Positions 979 to 13,693 of a DNA stretch of 44,641 nt are shown here, in pieces; within the stretch, counting starts at the first letter, position 1; every line of letters begins with the position of its first letter. The translations under genes were made by a program, and so were the position numbers. The notes beneath the pieces are model-generated. The model was not told the origin of the DNA. It did no database searches and saw only the letters and a list, made by a program, of their open reading frames with translations. Source of the DNA: Propioniciclava tarda (GTDB lineage Bacteria > Actinomycetota > Actinomycetes > Propionibacteriales > Propionibacteriaceae); contig NZ_FXTL01000022.1 of NCBI RefSeq assembly GCF_900182665.1, forward strand, positions 1 through 44,641, in the 5' to 3' direction.

Positions 979-2097
979 TCAAGGGGTGTTCGTCGTCGGC
1001 GGATCCGGCACGGCGTCCGGCTTCGGCTTCTTCTTTCGGGTGGGCCTGATGAACAGGTAGTAGCCCGTGGCGGCCAGCAGGCCAAGCAGGACGACGGGCT
1101 GCAGGATCCACAGCCAGCTGTCGCCGACCAGGGGCCGCATCGGGTTGGGCGCCGGCTCCGGCGCCGCGGTCACGATGGCGCCCGGGGACGCCGTCGTGGA
1201 CGGTCCCGAGGTCGCGTTGGTCGGGGCCGACGAGACGCCGGCGTAGGAGGTGTCAGCCAGCGCCAGGGCGCCGACCGCGGTGGCGGTCAGGTCGCCCTTG
1301 CCCTGCTCGGCGAGGGACCCGTCGGCCAGCTGCTGGCTGGCGAGGTACGAGACTGCGCGCGGCTGGGCCAGCCCCGCGGCCTGCAGGGCGGACGCCATCA
1401 ACGCGGTCGTCCTGATCGTGCTGCCGCCCCGCCAGGACCCGTCCGCGTGCTGCTGGGCGGACGCCCACGCCGCCCCGTTGAGGAGGGCGGCCCTCGCCGA
1501 GATCGAGTCGGTCTGGGTGCCGAGCGCCAGCAGCGCCCAGGCCGTGCTTTCGGCGTCCGCAGAGGCAGCCGGCGCTGAGCCGAAGCCGCCGTCGCTGCCC
1601 GCGAGCCGGACGACGTAGCGCAGCATCGACGTCGGCACCTGTTCGTTGGCCCTGGCGAGCGCGATCATGCCCAGCGCGGACGCCCCCGCGCCCGGCACCG
1701 AGCCGAACGAGCCGTCCGGACGTAGGCCGGCCTTGACGGAGCCGACGAGGTCGAGGCCGGCGAAGTTGCGAGGGTCCTCACCCAGCGCGGACGCCAGGAT
1801 GGCCAGTTTGGCGGCAGCCTCGGGGCCCTTGGCGGCGTACGCCTGGGCGCCACCCTTCACGGTCGACGTCAAGGCGGAGGTCTGGGTGGTCATCGTCGCG
1901 TCTCCGGTGGCCAGCAGGCCGAGGAGGACGTCCGCGGCCAGGCCGACCTCGGTGACGGTCGCCGACTGGCTGGCGAGATAGGACGCCGACTTGCGGGCCG
2001 CCTCGGCATTGCCCACCGCGTGCGCCGGGAGCGTCCACCCCAGCAGCATGACGAGGCAGGCCAACAGTGCCGCTGGCAGGCGTGTCATGCGACGCAT
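979..2097 (-). CDS. Secreted, membrane-anchored alpha/alpha-barrel protein (transcobalamin alpha-domain-like), copy 2
   Basis: A 372-residue protein with an N-terminal signal peptide ending near PAHA, then roughly 240 residues of prenyltransferase/squalene-cyclase-type repeats with QQ-x-x-DGSW motifs (QQHADGSW, QQLADGSL, GSDGGFG, RPDGSFGS). A Thr/Pro/Ala-rich linker, one transmembrane helix (WLWILQPVVLLGLLAATGYY) and a basic Lys-rich tail follow. The fold is that of the N-terminal domain of intrinsic factor and transcobalamin, which cradles one face of cobalamin. As last gene of the riboswitch operon, after the ECF S component, it is inferred to be a surface corrinoid binder. ATG at 2097 is chosen because GGAAGGA precedes it at 6 nt; an in-frame TTG at 2115 lacks such support. 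A polysaccharide- or terpene-related role is possible but the context disfavours it. Confidence 0.75.
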   Translation of the reverse strand: MRRMTRLPAALLACLVMLLGWTLPAHAVGNAEAARKSASYLASQSATVTEVGLAADVLLGLLATGDATMTTQTSALTSTVKGGAQAYAAKGPEAAAKLAILASALGEDPRNFAGLDLVGSVKAGLRPDGSFGSVPGAGASALGMIALARANEQVPTSMLRYVVRLAGSDGGFGSAPAASADAESTAWALLALGTQTDSISARAALLNGAAWASAQQHADGSWRGGSTIRTTALMASALQAAGLAQPRAVSYLASQQLADGSLAEQGKGDLTATAVGALALADTSYAGVSSAPTNATSGPSTTASPGAIVTAAPEPAPNPMRPLVGDSWLWILQPVVLLGLLAATGYYLFIRPTRKKKPKPDAVPDPPTTNTP

Positions 2098-2148
2098 GGT
2101 GGATCCTTCCCGCAACGCAGCCGCTGCGACCGTCCGGAGGGACTGCGT

Positions 2149-2970
2149 TCAGCCTAGTCCGGACGCGTCCGGCCCGACCACCCTGCCACGCGACGCGGAC
2201 GCCCACGCGGCCCGGCGCGAGGCCCGGCGCAGGATGTGGAGCAAGCCCGGTCCGAGCAGGACGATGAGAACGATCGACGTCAGGGCTCGGCCGAGGTTCC
2301 AGCCCATGGACGTGACCAGGTTGTAGAGGGCGAACCGGTGCAGGTTTGCGAGCGGTCCGGCGTCCGGGTCGAAGGAGAACTGGGTGCCCGGACCGATGCC
2401 GAACGGCCAGAAGGCGAAGTCCATGAGCCAGCCGAAGGCGAAGGCCGACACCAGCCCGTAGCCGCACAGCATGGCGATCTCGGCGCCTCCGGTCGGGCGC
2501 CGGGGCAGCAGGCCGGCGCCGAGTCCCAGGAGTCCGGCGGCGATCATCTGGTAGGGCAGCCAGGCCCCGACGCCGCCCGTCAGCAGCGCGGATGCCCCCA
2601 GCGTGATCGCCCCCTGCGCGAAGCCGAAGCCGGGGCCGAAGACGCGTCCGCCGAGGATCATCAGGAAGAAGATCGGCTCCATGCCGGCGCTGCCGGCCCC
2701 GAGCGGCCGCAGGATCGCCCCAACCGCCGCGAGGACACCGAGCATCGCCAGGCCTTTGACGTCGAGGGAGTCGGAGGTCAGCTCGGCCACGACGACCGCC
2801 AGCACCAGGGGCAGGACGAGCGCGAAGACGAACGTTGCCGTCGTGGCCGAGCTTGCGTCCAGGCGGGCGAACAGCGGCCAGGCGAACGCGGTCAGGCCCG
2901 CCACGGCGGCCACGGCCAGCATGGCGACCGACCTTGGGGCGAGCGGTGCGGCGTCCGCTGTGGGCGTCAT
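2149..2970 (-). CDS. ECF transporter S component, predicted corrinoid-specific
   Basis: A 273-residue hydrophobic protein with about six to eight membrane segments. The central PxFFLMILGGRVFGPGFGFAQGAITLGASAL stretch (about residues 100-130) and an Ala/Gly-rich YQMIAAGLLGLGAG helix are typical of long S components of the CbrT-like type. S components bind the vitamin and confer specificity, while the T and A subunits supply energy. Its ATG overlaps the TGA of the ATPase gene by 4 bp (ATGA at 2967-2970). Cobalamin or a precursor is assigned from the riboswitch and the flanking transcobalamin-like proteins, not from residues in the protein. A different corrinoid (cobinamide) or dimethylbenzimidazole cannot be excluded. 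Confidence 0.85.
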   Translation of the reverse strand: MTPTADAAPLAPRSVAMLAVAAVAGLTAFAWPLFARLDASSATTATFVFALVLPLVLAVVVAELTSDSLDVKGLAMLGVLAAVGAILRPLGAGSAGMEPIFFLMILGGRVFGPGFGFAQGAITLGASALLTGGVGAWLPYQMIAAGLLGLGAGLLPRRPTGGAEIAMLCGYGLVSAFAFGWLMDFAFWPFGIGPGTQFSFDPDAGPLANLHRFALYNLVTSMGWNLGRALTSIVLIVLLGPGLLHILRRASRRAAWASASRGRVVGPDASGLG

Positions 2971-4544
2971 CTGGACGCCTCCGCCGCGGTCAACACCGGG
3001 ACCGGGGCGAACACCTTGGAGACCTGGGGGGCGAACGACGGCGACGAGGTCGCCACCTGGCGGGTCGGGCCGTCCGCGATGATCTCGCCGTCGGCCATCA
3101 CCACGAGCCGGTCGGTCGCGGCGGCCGCGAACTCGACGTCGTGGGTGCTGATGATCACGGTCTGGCCGGCGGCGACCAACTGGGCGACGATGTCGCGCAG
3201 CCGGTGCTTCATGTCGTAGTCGAGACCGCGGGTCGGCTCGTCCAGGCAGACGACACTCGGGGACGCCGTGAGCTGGATCGCCAGCACCAGTGCCAGCCTC
3301 TGGCCCTCGGACAGGTCGTGGGGATCGGCGTCCAGTGGCAGGTCAGCGCCCAAGAGTCGGAGCTGTCCGAGGGCCGTGCCGGGGGCGGCCGAGGACTCGG
3401 CGTCCGCCCGGGCCAGCTCCGCGCTGACGGTAGGCAGGTAGAGCAGGTCGGACGCCGTCTGCGGCACGAGGGCTACCGCGCGCCGGGCGTCCGCGGGGCG
3501 CAGCCGCCGGGGATCGACGCCCGCGGCGTCCACCTCGCCCGTGCTGGGGACACCGCCCTGAACAGCCCACAGCAGGCTCGACTTGCCCGCCCCGTTGCGG
3601 CCCATGAGCCCGGTGGTGGTCCCGGCGGCGAAGTCGAGGCTGACGCCGTCGACGGCCCGAAGGCGTCCGTAATCGACGGTAAGCCCCCGCACCGACAGTC
3701 CGACCGGTGCCGTCGGCAGGGCCTTCGGGGGCGGCGCCGACACCGTGATGGCGTCGCACTGGACGAGGCGTCGGGCGTCCCGGACCGAGGTCGGGACGCC
3801 GGGCCAACGCAGCGCTCGCGCCAACTCGGCCAGCGGGGGGACCACGTCGCAGCCGGCCAGGACGTCGCCGGGGCGTCCGTACTCGACGGTGCCGTCCGTG
3901 CGGACCCAGGCGACGGTGTCGGCGTAATGCAGGACGCGCTCGAGCCGGTGCTCGGCGAGGACGACCGTCAGGCCGACCTCGTGGACCAGGGTGGTGATCG
4001 CCGCCAGCACGTCCGCGGCGGCGTTCGGGTCGAGGGCAGACGTCGGCTCGTCGAGGACCAGGATGCGCGGCTGGGCGGCCAGCACGGACGCGATCGCGAC
4101 GCGCTGCTGTTGGCCGCCCGAGAGATCGGCCAGGGGGCGATCCCGCAGGGCGACGATGTTCATCAGGTCGAGCGTCTCCTCGACCCGCTTGCGCATGGTG
4201 GCGGGCGGCAGGCCGAGCTGCTCCATGCCGTAGGCGATCTCGTCCTCGACGCGATCGGTGACGAAGCCGTGCAGGGGGTTCTGGCCGACGTAGCCGACGA
4301 GGTCGGCGAGATCGCGGGGCCGCTCGTGGTGGGTCGAGCGTCCGGCGACGCGGACGCGTCCGGTGAGGCGTCCGCCGGTGAAGTGCGGGACGAGGCCGTT
4401 GACGAGGCCCAGCAGCGTCGACTTACCGGTGCCGGTGAGGCCCACGACCACGCAGAGGTCGCCGTCGGCCACGGTGAAGGACACGTCGCGCAGGGTCGGC
4501 TCGGCGCCGGAATAGGCGAAGGTGACGTCATCGAACTCGATCAT
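2967..4544 (-). CDS. ECF transporter ATPase, two fused ABC domains (A-A')
   Basis: This 525-residue protein hydrolyses ATP to drive the T/S pair. Domain 1 has Walker A GLTGTGKST (35-43), a Q-loop in YVGQNP, signature LSGGQQQR, Walker B ILVLDEPTSALD and a switch His in AEHRLE. Domain 2 has Walker A GRNGAGKSS, Q-loop VPQTA, a variant signature LSEGQR, Walker B VVCLDEPTRGLD and switch His in STHDVEF. Both sites look catalytically complete. Fusion of the two ATPases in one chain resembles the CbrU arrangement of predicted cobalamin ECF systems. The start is the ATG at 4544, overlapping the T-component stop by 4 bp; the longer in-frame reading upstream is an antisense-free shadow of the T gene. 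Confidence 0.92.
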   Translation of the reverse strand: MIEFDDVTFAYSGAEPTLRDVSFTVADGDLCVVVGLTGTGKSTLLGLVNGLVPHFTGGRLTGRVRVAGRSTHHERPRDLADLVGYVGQNPLHGFVTDRVEDEIAYGMEQLGLPPATMRKRVEETLDLMNIVALRDRPLADLSGGQQQRVAIASVLAAQPRILVLDEPTSALDPNAAADVLAAITTLVHEVGLTVVLAEHRLERVLHYADTVAWVRTDGTVEYGRPGDVLAGCDVVPPLAELARALRWPGVPTSVRDARRLVQCDAITVSAPPPKALPTAPVGLSVRGLTVDYGRLRAVDGVSLDFAAGTTTGLMGRNGAGKSSLLWAVQGGVPSTGEVDAAGVDPRRLRPADARRAVALVPQTASDLLYLPTVSAELARADAESSAAPGTALGQLRLLGADLPLDADPHDLSEGQRLALVLAIQLTASPSVVCLDEPTRGLDYDMKHRLRDIVAQLVAAGQTVIISTHDVEFAAAATDRLVVMADGEIIADGPTRQVATSSPSFAPQVSKVFAPVPVLTAAEASR

Positions 4545-5647
4545 GGGCGGCCAGCCGCAGTGGGCGCGGACGTGACGGCGAGCGGCACGAGCGCGCCGAC
4601 GAGGATCAGCGCCATCGCGGGGTGCAACTGCGGCCACACCAGGGGGTCGGTGGACGGGTGCATCGTGGCGTAGGCCGCCGGCCACAGCGTGCTGCCGAGC
4701 AGGGCGGCCGTGCCGAACGCCAGGACGCCGCCGCCGACGAGCGCCGTGTCGCGGGGCGTCCAGGGATCCGGGCGATAGCGGGTGACCCGCAGGCGGCGTC
4801 CGGCAGCGCGCAGCCCCACCGCGACGCCGGCAGCGCCGACGACGAGGCACGCCGCGGCCGCGGCCCGCTCTTGCGTCCCGGACGCCGCCAGCAGCAGGAA
4901 GCCGCCGAACGTCGCCAGCAGCATCGCCCCGAGCAGCGCGATCGTCGCTGCCGAGGACGGACGCGTGGCGACGCGCGTCCGGGCAAAGCCGCGGGCCTCC
5001 ATGCCGGCCGCGAGGCCGAGCGAGCGATCGACCGCGTCCGCGAGGACCGGCAGGACGACGGCGGACACCGCGCGCCAGCCCCGCGGCGCGCCGCCGCGCA
5101 GCCGCTGCGCTCGTCTGATGCGCTGCGTGCTCTCCACCAGCTGCGGGGCCACCGACAGCGCGATGACGACCGCAACGGACGCCTCGTACAGCGCGCCGGG
5201 CACTGACTTGAGGGCCCGCTTCGGGTTGGCCAGGGCATTGGCCGCACCGAGGCACAGGAGCATGAGCCCGAGGCGCAGCGAGTCGTAGGCGGTGTAGGCG
5301 AGGGGCTCGGCCGTCACCGGACCGCCCAGCCTGATACCCGCGGCCCACTCGGGGAACTCTAGGTGCGGCAGGGTGAACAGGACGGTTGATCCGACCCCGG
5401 CGCCGGCCACGGCGGCGAAGACCACCCTGATCGCCAGCACGATGCCGGCCAGCGCGAAGTACGCCCCCACCGAGCGCGCCCAGGGGTCGTCCGTGCGGCG
5501 GGCGACGACCACGGCCGTGACCGCCAGTCCGAGCAGGACGCTGAGCAGCGGATTGGTCCCGAACGACGACGCACCGGCCACGGCCAGCGCCCAGCCCCAC
5601 CACGCCCACGGGTGGGCCTGGCGGGGACGGGGCGGTCTGGCGCTCAC
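4541..5647 (-). CDS. ECF transporter T component (EcfT-type permease)
   Basis: A 368-residue membrane protein with about six to seven hydrophobic segments. It carries the two Ala-Arg-Gly-type coupling motifs that contact the ATPases: RAQRLRG near residue 185 and MEARGF near residue 220, spaced as in EcfT. A C-terminal pair of extra helices makes it longer than a minimal EcfT. The start is GTG at 5647, overlapping the stop of the DUF4430 gene (GTGA), and its own stop overlaps the ATPase start, so the three ECF genes and the binder gene appear translationally coupled. The role is to transmit ATP-driven movement to the S component. Confidence 0.9.
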   Translation of the reverse strand: MSARPPRPRQAHPWAWWGWALAVAGASSFGTNPLLSVLLGLAVTAVVVARRTDDPWARSVGAYFALAGIVLAIRVVFAAVAGAGVGSTVLFTLPHLEFPEWAAGIRLGGPVTAEPLAYTAYDSLRLGLMLLCLGAANALANPKRALKSVPGALYEASVAVVIALSVAPQLVESTQRIRRAQRLRGGAPRGWRAVSAVVLPVLADAVDRSLGLAAGMEARGFARTRVATRPSSAATIALLGAMLLATFGGFLLLAASGTQERAAAAACLVVGAAGVAVGLRAAGRRLRVTRYRPDPWTPRDTALVGGGVLAFGTAALLGSTLWPAAYATMHPSTDPLVWPQLHPAMALILVGALVPLAVTSAPTAAGRP

Positions 5648-6507
5648 GTGCGGCGGCGCCTCCTCGTGCCGAGAACCCAGGCGCCGAGGCCCGCGCCCCC
5701 GAGCACCACGGCGCCTGCCGTCGCGATCGTCGCCGTGGGTGCCCCCTGGCTGCTCGGTGCGGACGCCGCCGTCGGCTCGGCCGGGACGGTCGGCATGGCG
5801 GTGGCGGTCTCGGACGCCGTTGGCGCCGCGCCTGCGGGGACCGGAGCGGCCGAGGCGGTGGGCGTCGAAGGTGCCTCGGACGTCGGGGCAGGCGTGGCCG
5901 GCGTGGTCGTCGACGCGGGTCGGGTGGACGCCGTCGCGCTCGCCTTCGTCGTGGACGCCGCGCTGGACGCCTTGGACGTGGCCGGGCTGGACGCCTTCTG
6001 CGTCGGCTGCGTCGTCGCCGGGACCGTGGTCGCGGGCGCCGTCGTGGCCGGAGGCGTGGTGGTCGGCGGGGCAGTGGTCGCGACCGGGGTGACCGGAGGG
6101 CGGCCCGAGGGCGGCGCCCCGTTACCGAAGGCCCAGCCCTCCGCGTCCCCCTGCGCGGGCACGTAGCTGCCAGCGCCCTTCGATGAATAGCCCCACGCGC
6201 CGTAGGAGCCGTCCGCGTTGCGCTTGGCGTGCCAGTAGGACCAGTACGGCGTCGCCATCGAGCAGGTGTCCGGCTTGCCGCCGATCTGGCAGACGAAGGA
6301 GCCTCCGGTGAGTTGGACGTCGAAGCCGGCCCCCCGCAGGGCCGCCAGGCCGCTGCCGTAGCTGGTCGAGCACCGGACGGATGACTCCACCACGACCCAG
6401 ACCCCCGAGCAGGACGCCGCCTGCGCGGCCGGGGCGGGGACGGCTCCGAGCACCCCCACGATGCCGAGGGCCAGCCCCAGCAGCGTGGCTCTCAGTGAGC
6501 GAAGCAT
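5644..6507 (-). CDS. Membrane-anchored DUF4430 protein (transcobalamin beta-domain-like)
   Basis: A 287-residue protein: signal peptide ending near PAAQA, a domain of about 95 residues, a roughly 120-residue Thr/Ser/Ala/Pro-rich linker, one C-terminal transmembrane helix and a basic tail (TRRRRRT). The domain shows the DUF4430 hallmarks YWSYWHAKRN and GWAFGNG, with four Cys residues that could pair outside the cell. DUF4430 matches the C-terminal beta domain of transcobalamin and intrinsic factor, which closes over cobalamin bound to the alpha barrel. The ATG at 6507 lies two bases past the upstream stop and lacks a strong ribosome site, implying coupling. Placed between the barrel protein and the ECF T gene, it is inferred to complete a two-chain corrinoid binder. 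There is no LPXTG sorting signal. Confidence 0.8.
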   Translation of the reverse strand: MLRSLRATLLGLALGIVGVLGAVPAPAAQAASCSGVWVVVESSVRCSTSYGSGLAALRGAGFDVQLTGGSFVCQIGGKPDTCSMATPYWSYWHAKRNADGSYGAWGYSSKGAGSYVPAQGDAEGWAFGNGAPPSGRPPVTPVATTAPPTTTPPATTAPATTVPATTQPTQKASSPATSKASSAASTTKASATASTRPASTTTPATPAPTSEAPSTPTASAAPVPAGAAPTASETATAMPTVPAEPTAASAPSSQGAPTATIATAGAVVLGGAGLGAWVLGTRRRRRT

Positions 6508-6509
6508 GG

Positions 6510-7559
6510 TCAGGCTGTCCGACGAACCACGATCGCGGACGCGACCACGAGCGCCACGAGGACGGCGAACGGAGCGGCGGACGGCTCCGGATCGGCCGAG
6601 GTCTTGGCCGGAACTCCGCGGCTCGGCGCGGGAGTGGTGGTGGGCGTGGTCGCCGTCGTCGGCGAGGGCGAAGAGGTGACGGTCTTGGTCGGCGTCCACA
6701 CCACATTCAGGTACGACACGCCTCCGAGGAGGGGCAGGCACTGCGCGGTGGCGAACACGTCGCCGGATCCGTCGACCCCGATGGCCCCGTTGGCCAGTTG
6801 CTGGGTCTTGACCCAGGCCAGAGCCTTCGTCGGTGCGACCCCGGCGCTCTCCAGTGCCGATGCCAGGACGCACGTCGAGTTGACCGGCACGTAGCCGGTC
6901 CAAGATCCGTTCGCCTGCTGAGCGCCCTGGGCCCACGCGACGGCCTTTGCGAGGGCGGCCTGCCCGGCCGGGGTCGTGTCCGTGAGGAGTCCGATGATGG
7001 CGAGGGCGGTGTTGTCGGCGTCCGACGGCGCCCCCACCGCATACCCGAAGCCGCCGTCGGCGTTCTGCTGCGAGAGCAGCCAGGTGGACAGGGCGGCAGG
7101 GCCGGTCGCGCCGGCACGCTTGAAGCCCGCCATGGTGAGCCCCGAGCTGAAGGCGGACGGCCAGCTACCGACGGAGCCGTCGGCCGCGGTATCCGCCGTC
7201 ATGGATGTGACGAGGTTCACCCCGCCGAAGCTGGTGGGACTCAGGCCGTAGGCGTCCGCGATGATGGCGAGCTTGCCGGGGGCCCCGCCGCCGGCAGCGG
7301 CGTACGTGGGCGCGCCGGATTTCACCTGCGCCAGCAGGGCGTCAATCGTCGGCTGGAGGGCGGGGTCGGTGGCCGATGCCAGACCGATCAGAATTTCGCC
7401 CGCCATGCCGGTCGTGGGGGCGGGGGAGACCTGGGTGGTGAGCCAGGTGGCAGCCGCGTTGGCAGCGGCGGTATCGGCAGCGTGGGCGGGCGAGACCGCG
7501 GCGACGCTGACCAGGGCGGACAGGGAGAGAGCGGCGAAAAGCCGGCGCATGATCGTCAT
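6510..7559 (-). CDS. Secreted, membrane-anchored alpha/alpha-barrel protein (transcobalamin alpha-domain-like), copy 1
   Basis: First gene of the riboswitch operon, 349 residues. It has a signal peptide ending near PAHA, about 250 residues of alpha/alpha-barrel repeats with QQNADGGFG, QQANGSW and QQLANGAIG motifs, a Thr/Pro-rich linker, and a C-terminal transmembrane helix with a short basic end (VVRRTA). It shares its plan with the last gene of the operon but the two have clearly diverged. It is proposed to bind the lower or alpha face of a corrinoid outside the cell and cooperate with the DUF4430 protein encoded immediately downstream. ATG at 7559 is preceded by AAGGA at 5 nt; a second Met three codons in is less well placed. 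Expression should fall when cobalamin occupies the leader riboswitch. Confidence 0.8.
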   Translation of the reverse strand: MTIMRRLFAALSLSALVSVAAVSPAHAADTAAANAAATWLTTQVSPAPTTGMAGEILIGLASATDPALQPTIDALLAQVKSGAPTYAAAGGGAPGKLAIIADAYGLSPTSFGGVNLVTSMTADTAADGSVGSWPSAFSSGLTMAGFKRAGATGPAALSTWLLSQQNADGGFGYAVGAPSDADNTALAIIGLLTDTTPAGQAALAKAVAWAQGAQQANGSWTGYVPVNSTCVLASALESAGVAPTKALAWVKTQQLANGAIGVDGSGDVFATAQCLPLLGGVSYLNVVWTPTKTVTSSPSPTTATTPTTTPAPSRGVPAKTSADPEPSAAPFAVLVALVVASAIVVRRTA

Positions 7560-7644
7560 GACGTTCCTTTTTCCGGCTCACGACGAATGGGTCCGGAAGC
7601 GATGAGGCGCCGGCTCCACCCCCGCAAACCTCGACGGGTTGGGT

Positions 7645-7746
7645 GGTCGGTCCCGGCGGGCATTCCGGCTCTGCCTCACGGGCATCACGGCTGCGGGTCA
7701 GCCTCGGTCTCTCACCGAGTTCCCCCACAGGGTCCGGGGTCGAACC
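7645..7746 (-). promoter_or_regulatory. Cobalamin riboswitch aptamer
   Basis: Read on the minus strand, the leader shows the conserved cobalamin aptamer core. GGGAACTCGGTGAGA (7724-7710) is followed by a paired GACCGAGGCTGACCCGCAG element, then GCCGTGA, a short TGCC/GGCA hairpin and the B12 box GAGCCGGAATGCCCGCC (7671-7655). Flanking CCCGG/CCGGG pairs can form the closing helix. The aptamer is compact, about 100 nt. The remaining 85 nt to the start codon (7560-7644) can form a CCACCC/GGGTGG hairpin and a TTCCGG/CCGGAA hairpin next to the ribosome site, so control may act on translation initiation. Cobalamin riboswitches normally turn genes off when the vitamin is plentiful. Confidence 0.92.
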
Positions 7747-7769
7747 TATCAGGCCGGACGCGGCATCAA
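7743..7769 (-). promoter_or_regulatory. Possible promoter for the corrinoid operon
   Basis: On the minus strand TTGATG (7769-7764) and TAGGTT (7748-7743) are 15 nt apart, which would start transcription near 7735 at the 5' edge of the riboswitch. The spacer is short and other positions upstream to 7930 cannot be excluded. The stretch 7770-7935 holds no gene I can support. Confidence 0.25.
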
Positions 7770-11593: not shown

Positions 11594-13693
11594 TTACTTC
11601 TCCTTGTCCGGCTTCTTGAACTTGTCGACCAGGTTGGCCGGCAGCAGTTCGTAGCCGTGGAACTCGCGGCTGAAGGTGCCGGTGCCGTGCGCCAGGCCGC
11701 GCAGGTCGATGGCGTACCGCGCCAGTTCAACCTGCGGGATGTTCGCCCGGATGGTCACCTTATGGTTGTCCGAGTCCGTGCCGAGCATCTGGCCGCGGCG
11801 TCCCGAAATATCGGTCATCACCGCGCCCATGTACTCCTCGCCGACAACGATCGTGACGAGATCGATCGGCTCGAGCAGGGCGACAATCGCCTTGTTCGTG
11901 GCCGCCTCCTTGAGCGCGTTGGCGCCCGCGAGCTGGAAGGCCATGTCGGAGGAGTCCACCGAGTGGGCCTTGCCGTCGAAGAGCGTGACCCTGACGTCGA
12001 CCATCGGGAACCCGGCGATGACGCCGCGCTCCATCTGGGACTTGACGCCCTTCTCGACCGACGGAATGAACTGGCGCGGGACCGCACCGCCCACCACCTT
12101 GTCGACGAACTCGAAGCCGGCGCCGCGCTCCAGCGGCTCGACCTCGACGTTGCAGACCGCGTACTGGCCGTGACCGCCCGACTGCTTGACGTGGCGGCCC
12201 TGCGCGGTGGCCTTGCCGATGAAGGTCTCCCGTAGGGCGATCTTGACGTCCTCTTGGGCGACGTTCACGCCGTAGCGGTCCTTGAGGCGGTTGAGCAGCA
12301 GGTCGGCGTGGGCCTGGCCGGTCGTCCACAGGACGAGCTGGTCTTCCGCACCGTGAGCGAGACGCACGGTGGTGTCCTCGACGGCCAGCCGTTGCAGGGC
12401 GCCCGACAGCTTGTCCTCGTCGTTGCGCGTCGCGGCCTTGATGGCCAGCGGGAGCAGCGGCTCGGGCATCTGCCAGTTGGGCACGACGCCGGACGCCTCG
12501 CGCGACGAGATGGTGTCGCCGGTTTCCGCGGTGGCCAACTTGGGCAGCATGACGATCTCGCCGGCGATGGCGGCCGTCTTCGGCTTCAGCTCGGTGCCGA
12601 CAGCCTGCTGGATGAGGCCGACACGCTCGTCGTGGTCGTGGTCCGGGTGGGCCTCGTCGGCCTTGCCGAAGTGCGACCGATGACCGGAGACGTGCACCAT
12701 GTCGTCGGTCTTCACGGTGCCCGAGAAGATCCGGACCATGGAGAGGCGTCCGGCGAACGGGTCGGTCGTCGTCCGGATCACCTGCGCGATCAGCGGCGCC
12801 GAAGGATCGGTGGGCGCCGGGCCGGTCGACTCGCCGTTGAGGCGGGTGAACTCGGGGTTCGGGTGCAGGCTCGGCGTCGGGAAGCCCTGCTCCATGAGGG
12901 AGAGCAGTTCCTCGGTGCCAAGACCGTTGGACGCCACGACCGGGATCACCGGGAACAGGTTGGCGTTCGCCGTGGCCTTCATCAGGTCGTTGAGCAGGTA
13001 GTCGCGACCCGGGTCCACGCCCTCGAGGTAGGAGTCCATCAGGTCGGCGTCGTCGGCCTCCTGGATGAGCCCCTCGATGAGCGGTCCACGGTGCAGTTCG
13101 ATCAGATCGTCGTGCGAGGTGTCGTCGTCGACGACCGAAGGCTCGCCGCCACCGGTGTAGTCGCGGAAGCGGCGGGTGAGCACGCTGACCGTGCCGTTCA
13201 TGCCGGTGCCGGACCCCACAGGAACGTGGGTGGGCAGGACGCCCTCGCCGAACGAGTCCTTCAACTGCTCGACCACGGTGTCGAAGTCGATGTGGCCGGC
13301 GTCCAACTTGGTCACGGCGATGACGCGGGGCAGGTTGGCCTCGCGGCACTCCTCCCATAGGGCCTGGGCCATGCCGTCCACGCCGTCGGCGGCGACCACG
13401 AAGATGGCGGCGTCCGCTGCCCGGATGCCCGCGCGAAGCTCTCCCACGAAATCGGGGTGGCCCGGGGCGTCCAGGAGGTTCACCTTCACGTTGCCCGTCA
13501 CCAGCGAGGCCAGGTAGAGCTGGGAAAGGCGCTCGGGATCGTCCTTCTCGCCTCTATAGCCAGCGACGCGCGCGCGCAGCAACTGCTCGAACAACGAGGT
13601 CTTGCCAGACCCGGCGTTGCCGATCAGCACCACGTTGCGCACATCGTCTGGGCTGTTCACCTGAATCTGTGCGTTGTTCACCTTCGAACTCAT
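11594..13693 (-). CDS. Elongation factor G-like GTPase (EF-G2 type)
   Basis: A 699-residue, five-domain EF-G relative. The P-loop is GNAGSGKTS where true EF-G has AHIDAGKTT, the G3 motif is DAPGHPDF (His retained) and G4 is TKLD instead of NKMD. Domain IV (GGHGQYAVCNVEVEP) and domain V (GRRGQMLG) are complete. Actinobacteria often carry such a second copy; the mycobacterial one is reported not to be a normal ribosome-dependent translocase, so the role is uncertain. ATG at 13693 (MSSKVNN) is chosen over an upstream in-frame start at 13729. The gene is divergent from rplM and ends at the 20-bp terminator. Confidence 0.9.
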   Translation of the reverse strand: MSSKVNNAQIQVNSPDDVRNVVLIGNAGSGKTSLFEQLLRARVAGYRGEKDDPERLSQLYLASLVTGNVKVNLLDAPGHPDFVGELRAGIRAADAAIFVVAADGVDGMAQALWEECREANLPRVIAVTKLDAGHIDFDTVVEQLKDSFGEGVLPTHVPVGSGTGMNGTVSVLTRRFRDYTGGGEPSVVDDDTSHDDLIELHRGPLIEGLIQEADDADLMDSYLEGVDPGRDYLLNDLMKATANANLFPVIPVVASNGLGTEELLSLMEQGFPTPSLHPNPEFTRLNGESTGPAPTDPSAPLIAQVIRTTTDPFAGRLSMVRIFSGTVKTDDMVHVSGHRSHFGKADEAHPDHDHDERVGLIQQAVGTELKPKTAAIAGEIVMLPKLATAETGDTISSREASGVVPNWQMPEPLLPLAIKAATRNDEDKLSGALQRLAVEDTTVRLAHGAEDQLVLWTTGQAHADLLLNRLKDRYGVNVAQEDVKIALRETFIGKATAQGRHVKQSGGHGQYAVCNVEVEPLERGAGFEFVDKVVGGAVPRQFIPSVEKGVKSQMERGVIAGFPMVDVRVTLFDGKAHSVDSSDMAFQLAGANALKEAATNKAIVALLEPIDLVTIVVGEEYMGAVMTDISGRRGQMLGTDSDNHKVTIRANIPQVELARYAIDLRGLAHGTGTFSREFHGYELLPANLVDKFKKPDKEK

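Follow-up and report, generated by a model that had tools for sequence, protein, structure and literature searches.

Transcobalamin (TC), intrinsic factor (IF) and haptocorrin (HC), the animal carriers of vitamin B12 (cobalamin), are single chains in which a PF01122 domain is joined to a beta domain. In Bacteroides, the dedicated surface proteins BtuG and BtuH also catch B12 ahead of the transporter; they belong to other families and act in an outer-membrane setting. Importers of the energy-coupling factor (ECF) class are known for vitamin capture by the membrane S component alone. In Lactobacillus delbrueckii, ECF-CbrT is an ECF-type cobalamin importer whose S component CbrT itself binds the vitamin and shares the ECF module with other S components, and no outer binding proteins are described in the accessible part of that report (PMC5997447). 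Closest to the present case, Burroughs et al. 2007 (PMC1796856) described a transcobalamin-like SLBB clade in low-GC Gram-positives, planctomycetes and, less often, euryarchaea, with secreted or surface toroid and SLBB domains that are fused in either order or stand alone, often together with a second paralogous SLBB protein. The corresponding operons contain a CbiO-like ATPase and a CbiQ-like protein, their carriers usually lack B12 synthesis, and B12 scavenging was predicted as well as a bacterial origin of the animal carriers (PMC1796856). Here, we analysed a 44,641-nucleotide stretch of the Propioniciclava tarda genome (contig NZ_FXTL01000022.1; hereafter the window), which carries a riboswitch-headed operon encoding two toroid (alpha/alpha-barrel) proteins, a DUF4430-like protein (hereafter beta-like, i.e. 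transcobalamin beta-domain-like) and an ECF importer. We propose, with a probability of roughly 0.78, that this operon is a B12 (corrinoid) uptake system in which a barrel and the beta-like protein would bind the corrinoid between them and hand it to EcfS.

The operon lies on the minus strand of the window (979-7768) and comprises a cobalamin riboswitch and six closely packed genes, in the order toroid 1, DUF4430-like, EcfT, fused EcfA-A', EcfS and toroid 2 according to the list of open reading frames (ORFs):

7638-7768, minus strand: cobalamin riboswitch aptamer, short form, about 130 nucleotides (nt); RF00174, 51.4 bits
6510-7559, minus strand: toroid 1, with signal peptide, alpha/alpha-barrel at amino acids (aa) 28-287, linker of about 40 aa and C-terminal hydrophobic stretch at aa 327-345; PF13249, 1.2e-5, just under the cut-off
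5644-6507, minus strand: DUF4430-like protein, with signal peptide, predicted beta-grasp-type domain at aa 28-130, Thr/Ser/Pro/Ala linker of about 130 aa and C-terminal hydrophobic stretch at aa 261-279; assigned by predicted fold
4541-5647, minus strand: EcfT (CbiQ-type) membrane component; PF02361, 33.9 bits
2967-4544, minus strand: EcfA-EcfA' tandem ATPase in one chain; PF00005, two stretches, 164.3 bits
2149-2970, minus strand: EcfS substrate-binding membrane component; assigned by PF12822 matches of relatives, without a Pfam match of its own
979-2115, minus strand: toroid 2, second anchored alpha/alpha-barrel; PF00432, 9.2e-6, just under the cut-off

The likelier start of toroid 2 is the ATG at 2097, which is preceded by GGAAGGA. 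Since the genes overlap by 4 bases at the junctions of the DUF4430-like gene with ecfT, of ecfT with ecfA and of ecfA with ecfS, translational coupling is suggested. The RF00174 match, the gene order and these overlaps bear out the initial annotation, which had claimed a riboswitch-headed six-gene operon; the end it gave for the locus (7746) is 22 bases short of the riboswitch end at 7768.

Relatives of the beta-like domain were found in 78 of 147 family genomes and, with a threshold of 1e-6, in 103 of 394 genomes at class level. The gene neighbourhoods were then compared in 40 family regions (L032-L071), chosen by score from 36 of the 78 matching genomes, and in 20 class regions (L129-L148), one for each of 20 genomes among the 103, nearly all of which stood at the head of the match list; all fusion and riboswitch counts cover these sampled regions, not all genomes, and the fusion count is favoured because the first family batch was also chosen for long frames, i.e. 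possible fusions. Loci L072-L094 stand outside the counts; 13 of these 23 repeat regions already counted. The 40 family regions and the window together gave 34 barrel and 72 beta-like match segments. In 19 ORFs, one per genome, both halves were found in one chain, 12 of them barrel-first and seven beta-first; the occurrence of both orders is consistent with domains that need to come together on a ligand. At class level, the beta-like gene adjoins ecfT and ecfA in 19 of 20 regions, 12 of these 19 having the order barrel, beta-like, T, A, S. The window order with a second barrel after S was also seen in L136, and in L134, L135 and L141 the sole barrel sits after S. Fusions make up two of 17 class clusters with a barrel (L144 and L147) and 12 of 20 family clusters with a barrel and ECF genes; the split form is usual at class level and fusion is common in the family. 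Judged from these genomes, the system is widespread in actinobacteria. In L144 (6868-9927) and L147 (7366-10203) a single chain comprises a beta-like domain and two successive barrels, an arrangement which may bear on the two barrels of the window. Two further mergers were not used as evidence. A DUF4430-EcfT fusion in L061 (same genus; G093:C1:568000-583000, ORF of 554 aa) has an Arg-rich, apparently out-of-frame linker that lacks the membrane helix, and its EcfS is split among three ORFs, so that a frameshift artefact, sequencing errors or operon decay are probable; an EcfA-EcfS merger in L063 was likewise set aside.

These neighbourhoods also bear on another explanation, in which the beta-like protein alone would be the corrinoid receptor of EcfS and the barrels separate corrinoid stores or scavengers, with no joint clamp. 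Five of the 43 importer clusters have beta-like and ECF genes with no barrel in view, and in the remaining 38 the barrel shares the cluster with both. The human TC beta domain can bind cobalamin in isolation (structure 5np4; PMC5599065), and single genes can have a riboswitch of their own, i.e. the beta-like gene in L130 (8136-8271) and L139 (1502-1632) and a barrel gene in L134, which would suit independent functions; set against this, the 38 clusters with a barrel and the 19 natural fusions of both halves, in either order, make such a division of labour unlikely.

An AlphaFold2 model of the natural fusion L064 (391 aa; alignment of 24 rows) was compared with the Protein Data Bank (PDB). The model had a mean predicted local distance difference test score (pLDDT) of 93.3 and a predicted template modelling score (pTM) of 0.89. 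The best 15 of its 745 PDB matches were TC, IF and HC, with both domains aligned and E-values from 3.6e-12 to 2.7e-8; the best terpene cyclase match had 2.2e-6. The model of the beta-like domain of the window (pLDDT 93.3) gave 141 matches, of which the best 15 were TC or HC, led by 5no0, the isolated human TC beta domain (probability 1.00, template modelling (TM) score 0.61, E 0.011). The animal carriers thus share the fold pair of alpha/alpha-toroid and beta-grasp-type domain with the predicted structures of the relative's fusion and the beta-like domain of the window, at only 13-18% identity in the fold matches. The models cover the L064 fusion and the beta-like domain of the window, whose two barrels share 35% and 34% identity with the L064 barrel that was modelled. 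In sequence searches, the beta-like protein (6507-5644) had no Pfam match, including to PF14478, and six of 41 homologues of its domain matched PF14478 below the cut-off (best E 0.0041). The DUF4430 label therefore did not reach the Pfam threshold and is retained because the predicted fold supports it. A profile of the beta-like domain searched against PDB sequences returned only chance-looking matches (antibodies and Grainyhead; best E 0.01) and was discarded.

Both barrels of the window, which are 38% identical to each other, matched toroid families just below the Pfam cut-offs (25.1 of 26.2 and 25.7 of 26.5 bits). A profile of 32 barrel homologues matched squalene-hopene cyclases with 5.7e-36; its match to Transcobalamin-1 was weak (E 0.13) but spanned almost the full length. 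With PF01122 itself, the barrels of the window gave no match at E 0.1, and three of 24 rows matched (best 0.011), none over the cut-off. The cyclase match raises the explanation that the barrels are secreted terpene-cyclase-like enzymes that share the operon and have nothing to do with B12 binding. However, DXDD, which we take to be the defining motif of class II terpene cyclases, was found at the aligned place in none of the 32 barrels. There, the sequence reads D-x-D/E-x-T/S/G, with DADNT in toroid 1, DAEST in toroid 2, D-x-D-x-T/S in 29 of the 30 other barrels and DIDSG in L044. A DxDD string anywhere in the chain was seen in one of 34 family barrels (L054, off the aligned place) and one of 21 class barrels (L131, place not checked). 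Further, barrels are fused to the beta-like domain in relatives, the fold search with the L064 fusion put TC above every cyclase, the barrel gene of L134 has its own cobalamin riboswitch, and the same-genus barrel L071 reached 2.3e-4 and 20.7 bits with PF01122 (Eukaryotic cobalamin-binding protein; cut-off 25). We consider secreted cyclase-like enzymes, therefore, very improbable. In a tree of the 32 barrels, toroid 1 was nearest to L063 and toroid 2 to L055, both forks being below the support mark. Both barrels also gave weak partial matches, far below the cut-off, to the NCBIfam entry 'SCO2321 family membrane protein', pointing to a Streptomyces coelicolor relative.

A role in B12 uptake is further supported by the regulation of the genes. 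The riboswitch (7768-7638, minus strand) scored 51.4 bits with RF00174 (gathering score 31.5; E 4.7e-10) and was the sole RF00174 match in the host genome (150 of 168 candidates scored); a short-form model, derived from 16 such short riboswitches, returned the same single match (150 of 2988 candidates scored). In the consensus of the 16 relatives' riboswitches, 94.6% of the cells pair and 12 of 27 pairs are changed on both sides, which was reached by none of 500 shuffles, the consensus structure having been derived from the very alignment tested. Neither an intrinsic terminator nor a sigma-70-like promoter was found between 7500 and 8050, and the leader fold was not clearly more stable than shuffled sequences (z -1.14; 29 of 200 equally stable). 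At the Rfam gathering score, a cobalamin-class riboswitch was found upstream of 28 of the 41 importer clusters scanned (window 1/1, family 18/23, class 9/17), a scan which excludes L129 and L147. A looser Rfam scan of four misses revealed correctly placed sub-threshold matches in all four, the weakest with E 0.057. Taking Rfam, the looser matches and the short-form model together, 42 of the 43 clusters have a riboswitch within 800 nt, measured to the start of the nearest downstream same-strand domain match, in or before the cluster; the lone exception, L129, is a 3.9 kb contig with just 213 bases upstream. Twelve of the 43 clusters had supplied sequences to the short-form model, and those twelve were first detected by Rfam. 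A few riboswitches per genome of about 3 Mb would seldom precede one operon by chance.

The dependence on B12 control that the initial annotation had attached to these genes holds for the importer clusters and for half of the beta-like genes found without ECF or barrel genes: a riboswitch so placed was seen in five of ten family clusters with the beta-like domain alone. It is also missing from one (L044) of nine clusters with barrel and beta-like genes and no ECF genes. Some members may therefore have another function. No riboswitch was placed within 800 nt of the beta-like domains in the ORFs of about 1,400-1,500 aa of L035 (6048-10559) and L040 (5558-9745); the short-form model matched weakly near the ORF starts, about 3.2 kb before the beta-like domain. 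These large ORFs perhaps use the domain differently. In L134, a second short cobalamin riboswitch (12236-12378, plus strand) stands directly before the barrel gene downstream of ecfS, and this barrel seems to be under its own B12 control.

The host genome (2,974,143 bases in 40 contigs, completeness 100) was searched for B12-dependent and B12-related proteins. MetH (1372 bits) and methylmalonyl-CoA mutase (1279 bits) were found. A MetE domain was not found in the genome (control match in 10 of 14), and the only two tetrapyrrole methylases were a siroheme-type uroporphyrinogen-III methyltransferase (SUMT) and RsmI, with no corrin-ring methylase among them. Since MetH and the mutase are present and neither MetE nor corrin-ring methylases were found, the host is predicted to be a B12 auxotroph. 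There were also no PF01032 matches in the genome to the FecCD/BtuC permease, the hallmark of BtuCD-type importers (control match in 13 of 14). The operon would then be the one recognised candidate for B12 import in this host, with other importer types, such as BtuM and BacA, not searched for.

Two of the importer genes encode components typical of an ECF transporter. EcfT exceeded the cut-off of CbiQ (PF02361; 33.9 versus 25 bits), and the two ABC_tran (PF00005) stretches of EcfA-A' are in one chain of 525 aa. EcfS matched no Pfam family; it is assigned because its relatives match PF12822 (ECF_trnsprt), as do 13 of 19 aligned members (best 7.7e-11); eight of the 19 match PF07155. The protein of the window is 49-72% identical to the 18 other aligned members. 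That the operon encodes instead a B12-controlled CbiMNQO-type importer of cobalt (or nickel), whose outer proteins would catch metal chelates, can be all but set aside: EcfT does match the CbiQ cobalt family, and the bacterial structure 3u7z, rank 23 in the beta-like fold matches, is titled 'putative metal binding protein', but CbiM and CbiN had no match among the operon proteins at E 0.1, the EcfS relatives match the ECF substrate component family and some the riboflavin type (PF07155), the host, in which SUMT and RsmI were the only tetrapyrrole methylases found, apparently cannot assemble a corrin ring around cobalt, and the beta-like domain and the relative's fusion resemble transcobalamin.

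All three outer proteins end in a hydrophobic stretch. Those of toroid 1 and the beta-like protein have a counterpart at aa 337-355 of toroid 2, and visual inspection of the signal peptides revealed no lipobox, in agreement with the earlier description of these proteins as membrane-tethered and lipidless. The long disordered linkers described with it apply to one of the three, the beta-like protein; those of both barrels are about 40 aa. Among relatives, hydrophobic tails were present in 50 of 73 beta-like ORFs, 21 of 32 barrels and seven of 21 fusions, and LPxTG-like strings in eight beta-like ORFs, 11 barrels and 11 fusions. The mode of anchoring thus differs among relatives; the same-genus barrel L071 (2934-4385, minus strand) has three stretches of S-layer homology repeats, a different kind of anchoring.

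Genomics and predicted folds give good support to the core reading, in which a split binder resembling transcobalamin is coupled with an ECF importer under B12 control. This identity, put forward in the initial annotation, is backed by the 19 natural fusions, the fold matches, the riboswitch in 42 of 43 clusters and the predicted auxotrophy. Riboswitches of the cobalamin family are usually unbound at low B12, which turns the operon on. At low intracellular B12 the riboswitch would thus be free and the six genes expressed. The three secreted proteins would be tethered outside the membrane by their C-terminal helices, and the beta-like domain, on its long flexible linker, would bind a corrinoid together with a toroid, as the two domains of transcobalamin do. 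The corrinoid itself would hold the pair together until it reopens at EcfS and offers its captured ligand, which EcfT and the EcfA-A' ATPase would import via EcfS. We infer the corrinoid as ligand, the ligand-dependent pairing and the hand-over to EcfS. By analogy, such a split receptor is physically plausible, since the alpha and beta domains of human TC, when expressed separately, elute together in the presence of cyanocobalamin but not in its absence, a dependence also reported for intrinsic factor (PMC5599065). More tentatively, and with less confidence than we would need to favour it, the system may be a natural reversible split transcobalamin: an ECF importer that works with its own outer receptor, made up of separate tethered proteins which the vitamin holds together, and in which a single beta-like protein on a long tether could pair with two barrels that differ in corrinoid preference (DADNT and DAEST).

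Several observations weigh against the proposed uptake system. The closest sequence relatives of the barrel are squalene-hopene cyclases. The L064 model deviated from the 15 best carriers by a root-mean-square deviation of 16.6-18.0 A, with TM scores of 0.44-0.50; therefore its predicted domain arrangement, in a ligand-free model, differs from the closed cobalamin-bound clamp. E-values of the fold matches of the beta-like domain are modest, none being below 0.001, and among its 41 homologues PF14478 shares the rank of best Pfam match with the unrelated GWxTD (two members, 0.0039). A profile of the 19 S proteins searched against all PDB chains gave two chance matches (E 0.85 and 0.91) and no solved S component, including CbrT (6FNP). 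Two barrels face one beta-like protein, so that the stoichiometry is not fixed by the gene set, and since five of 43 importer clusters (L043, L045, L050, L142 and the short contig L129) have no barrel, an adjoining barrel may not be strictly needed. As for the regulation, 12 of the clusters were themselves a source of the model used in counting, Rfam's own threshold giving the 28 of 41 above, and cobalamin riboswitches are common, with at least one in 142 of 147 family genomes.

Compared with the described systems, the operon differs from TC, IF and HC in that separate membrane-tethered proteins, two of them barrels, are encoded together with the importer, and the barrels stay below the PF01122 cut-off. 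It differs from ECF-CbrT by its outer proteins and by an EcfS family without a sequence match to CbrT. Because B12 scavenging by such proteins was predicted by Burroughs et al. 2007, the finding is a variant of the kind predicted then. The main text of that paper contains none of the terms 'riboswitch', 'S component', 'Streptomyces' or 'Propionibacter' and names actinobacteria only for ComEA; a split pair of barrel and beta protein was not found described in its accessible part (PMC1796856). The statement that no characterised Gram-positive system has this layout stands insofar as no characterised bacterial member was found in the open-access literature searched; the layout is common in actinobacteria, and B12 scavenging by toroid and SLBB proteins beside CbiO and CbiQ had been predicted for other bacteria in 2007 (PMC1796856). 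New here are the occurrence across actinobacteria, a riboswitch that is nearly always present, the S component, the split two-barrel form (the split pair being usual at class level) and a host without another route among those searched.

In sum, the operon is a concrete candidate for B12 uptake in actinobacteria, with a defined gene set, regulation and host need. If the proposed function is true, it would provide a present-day bacterial counterpart to the animal B12 carriers with the two domains as separate proteins, and ligand-driven assembly, known for the human transcobalamin domains, would be open to study as a natural mechanism. The 2007 proposal of a bacterial origin of the animal carriers could be re-examined on a much larger set of sequences.

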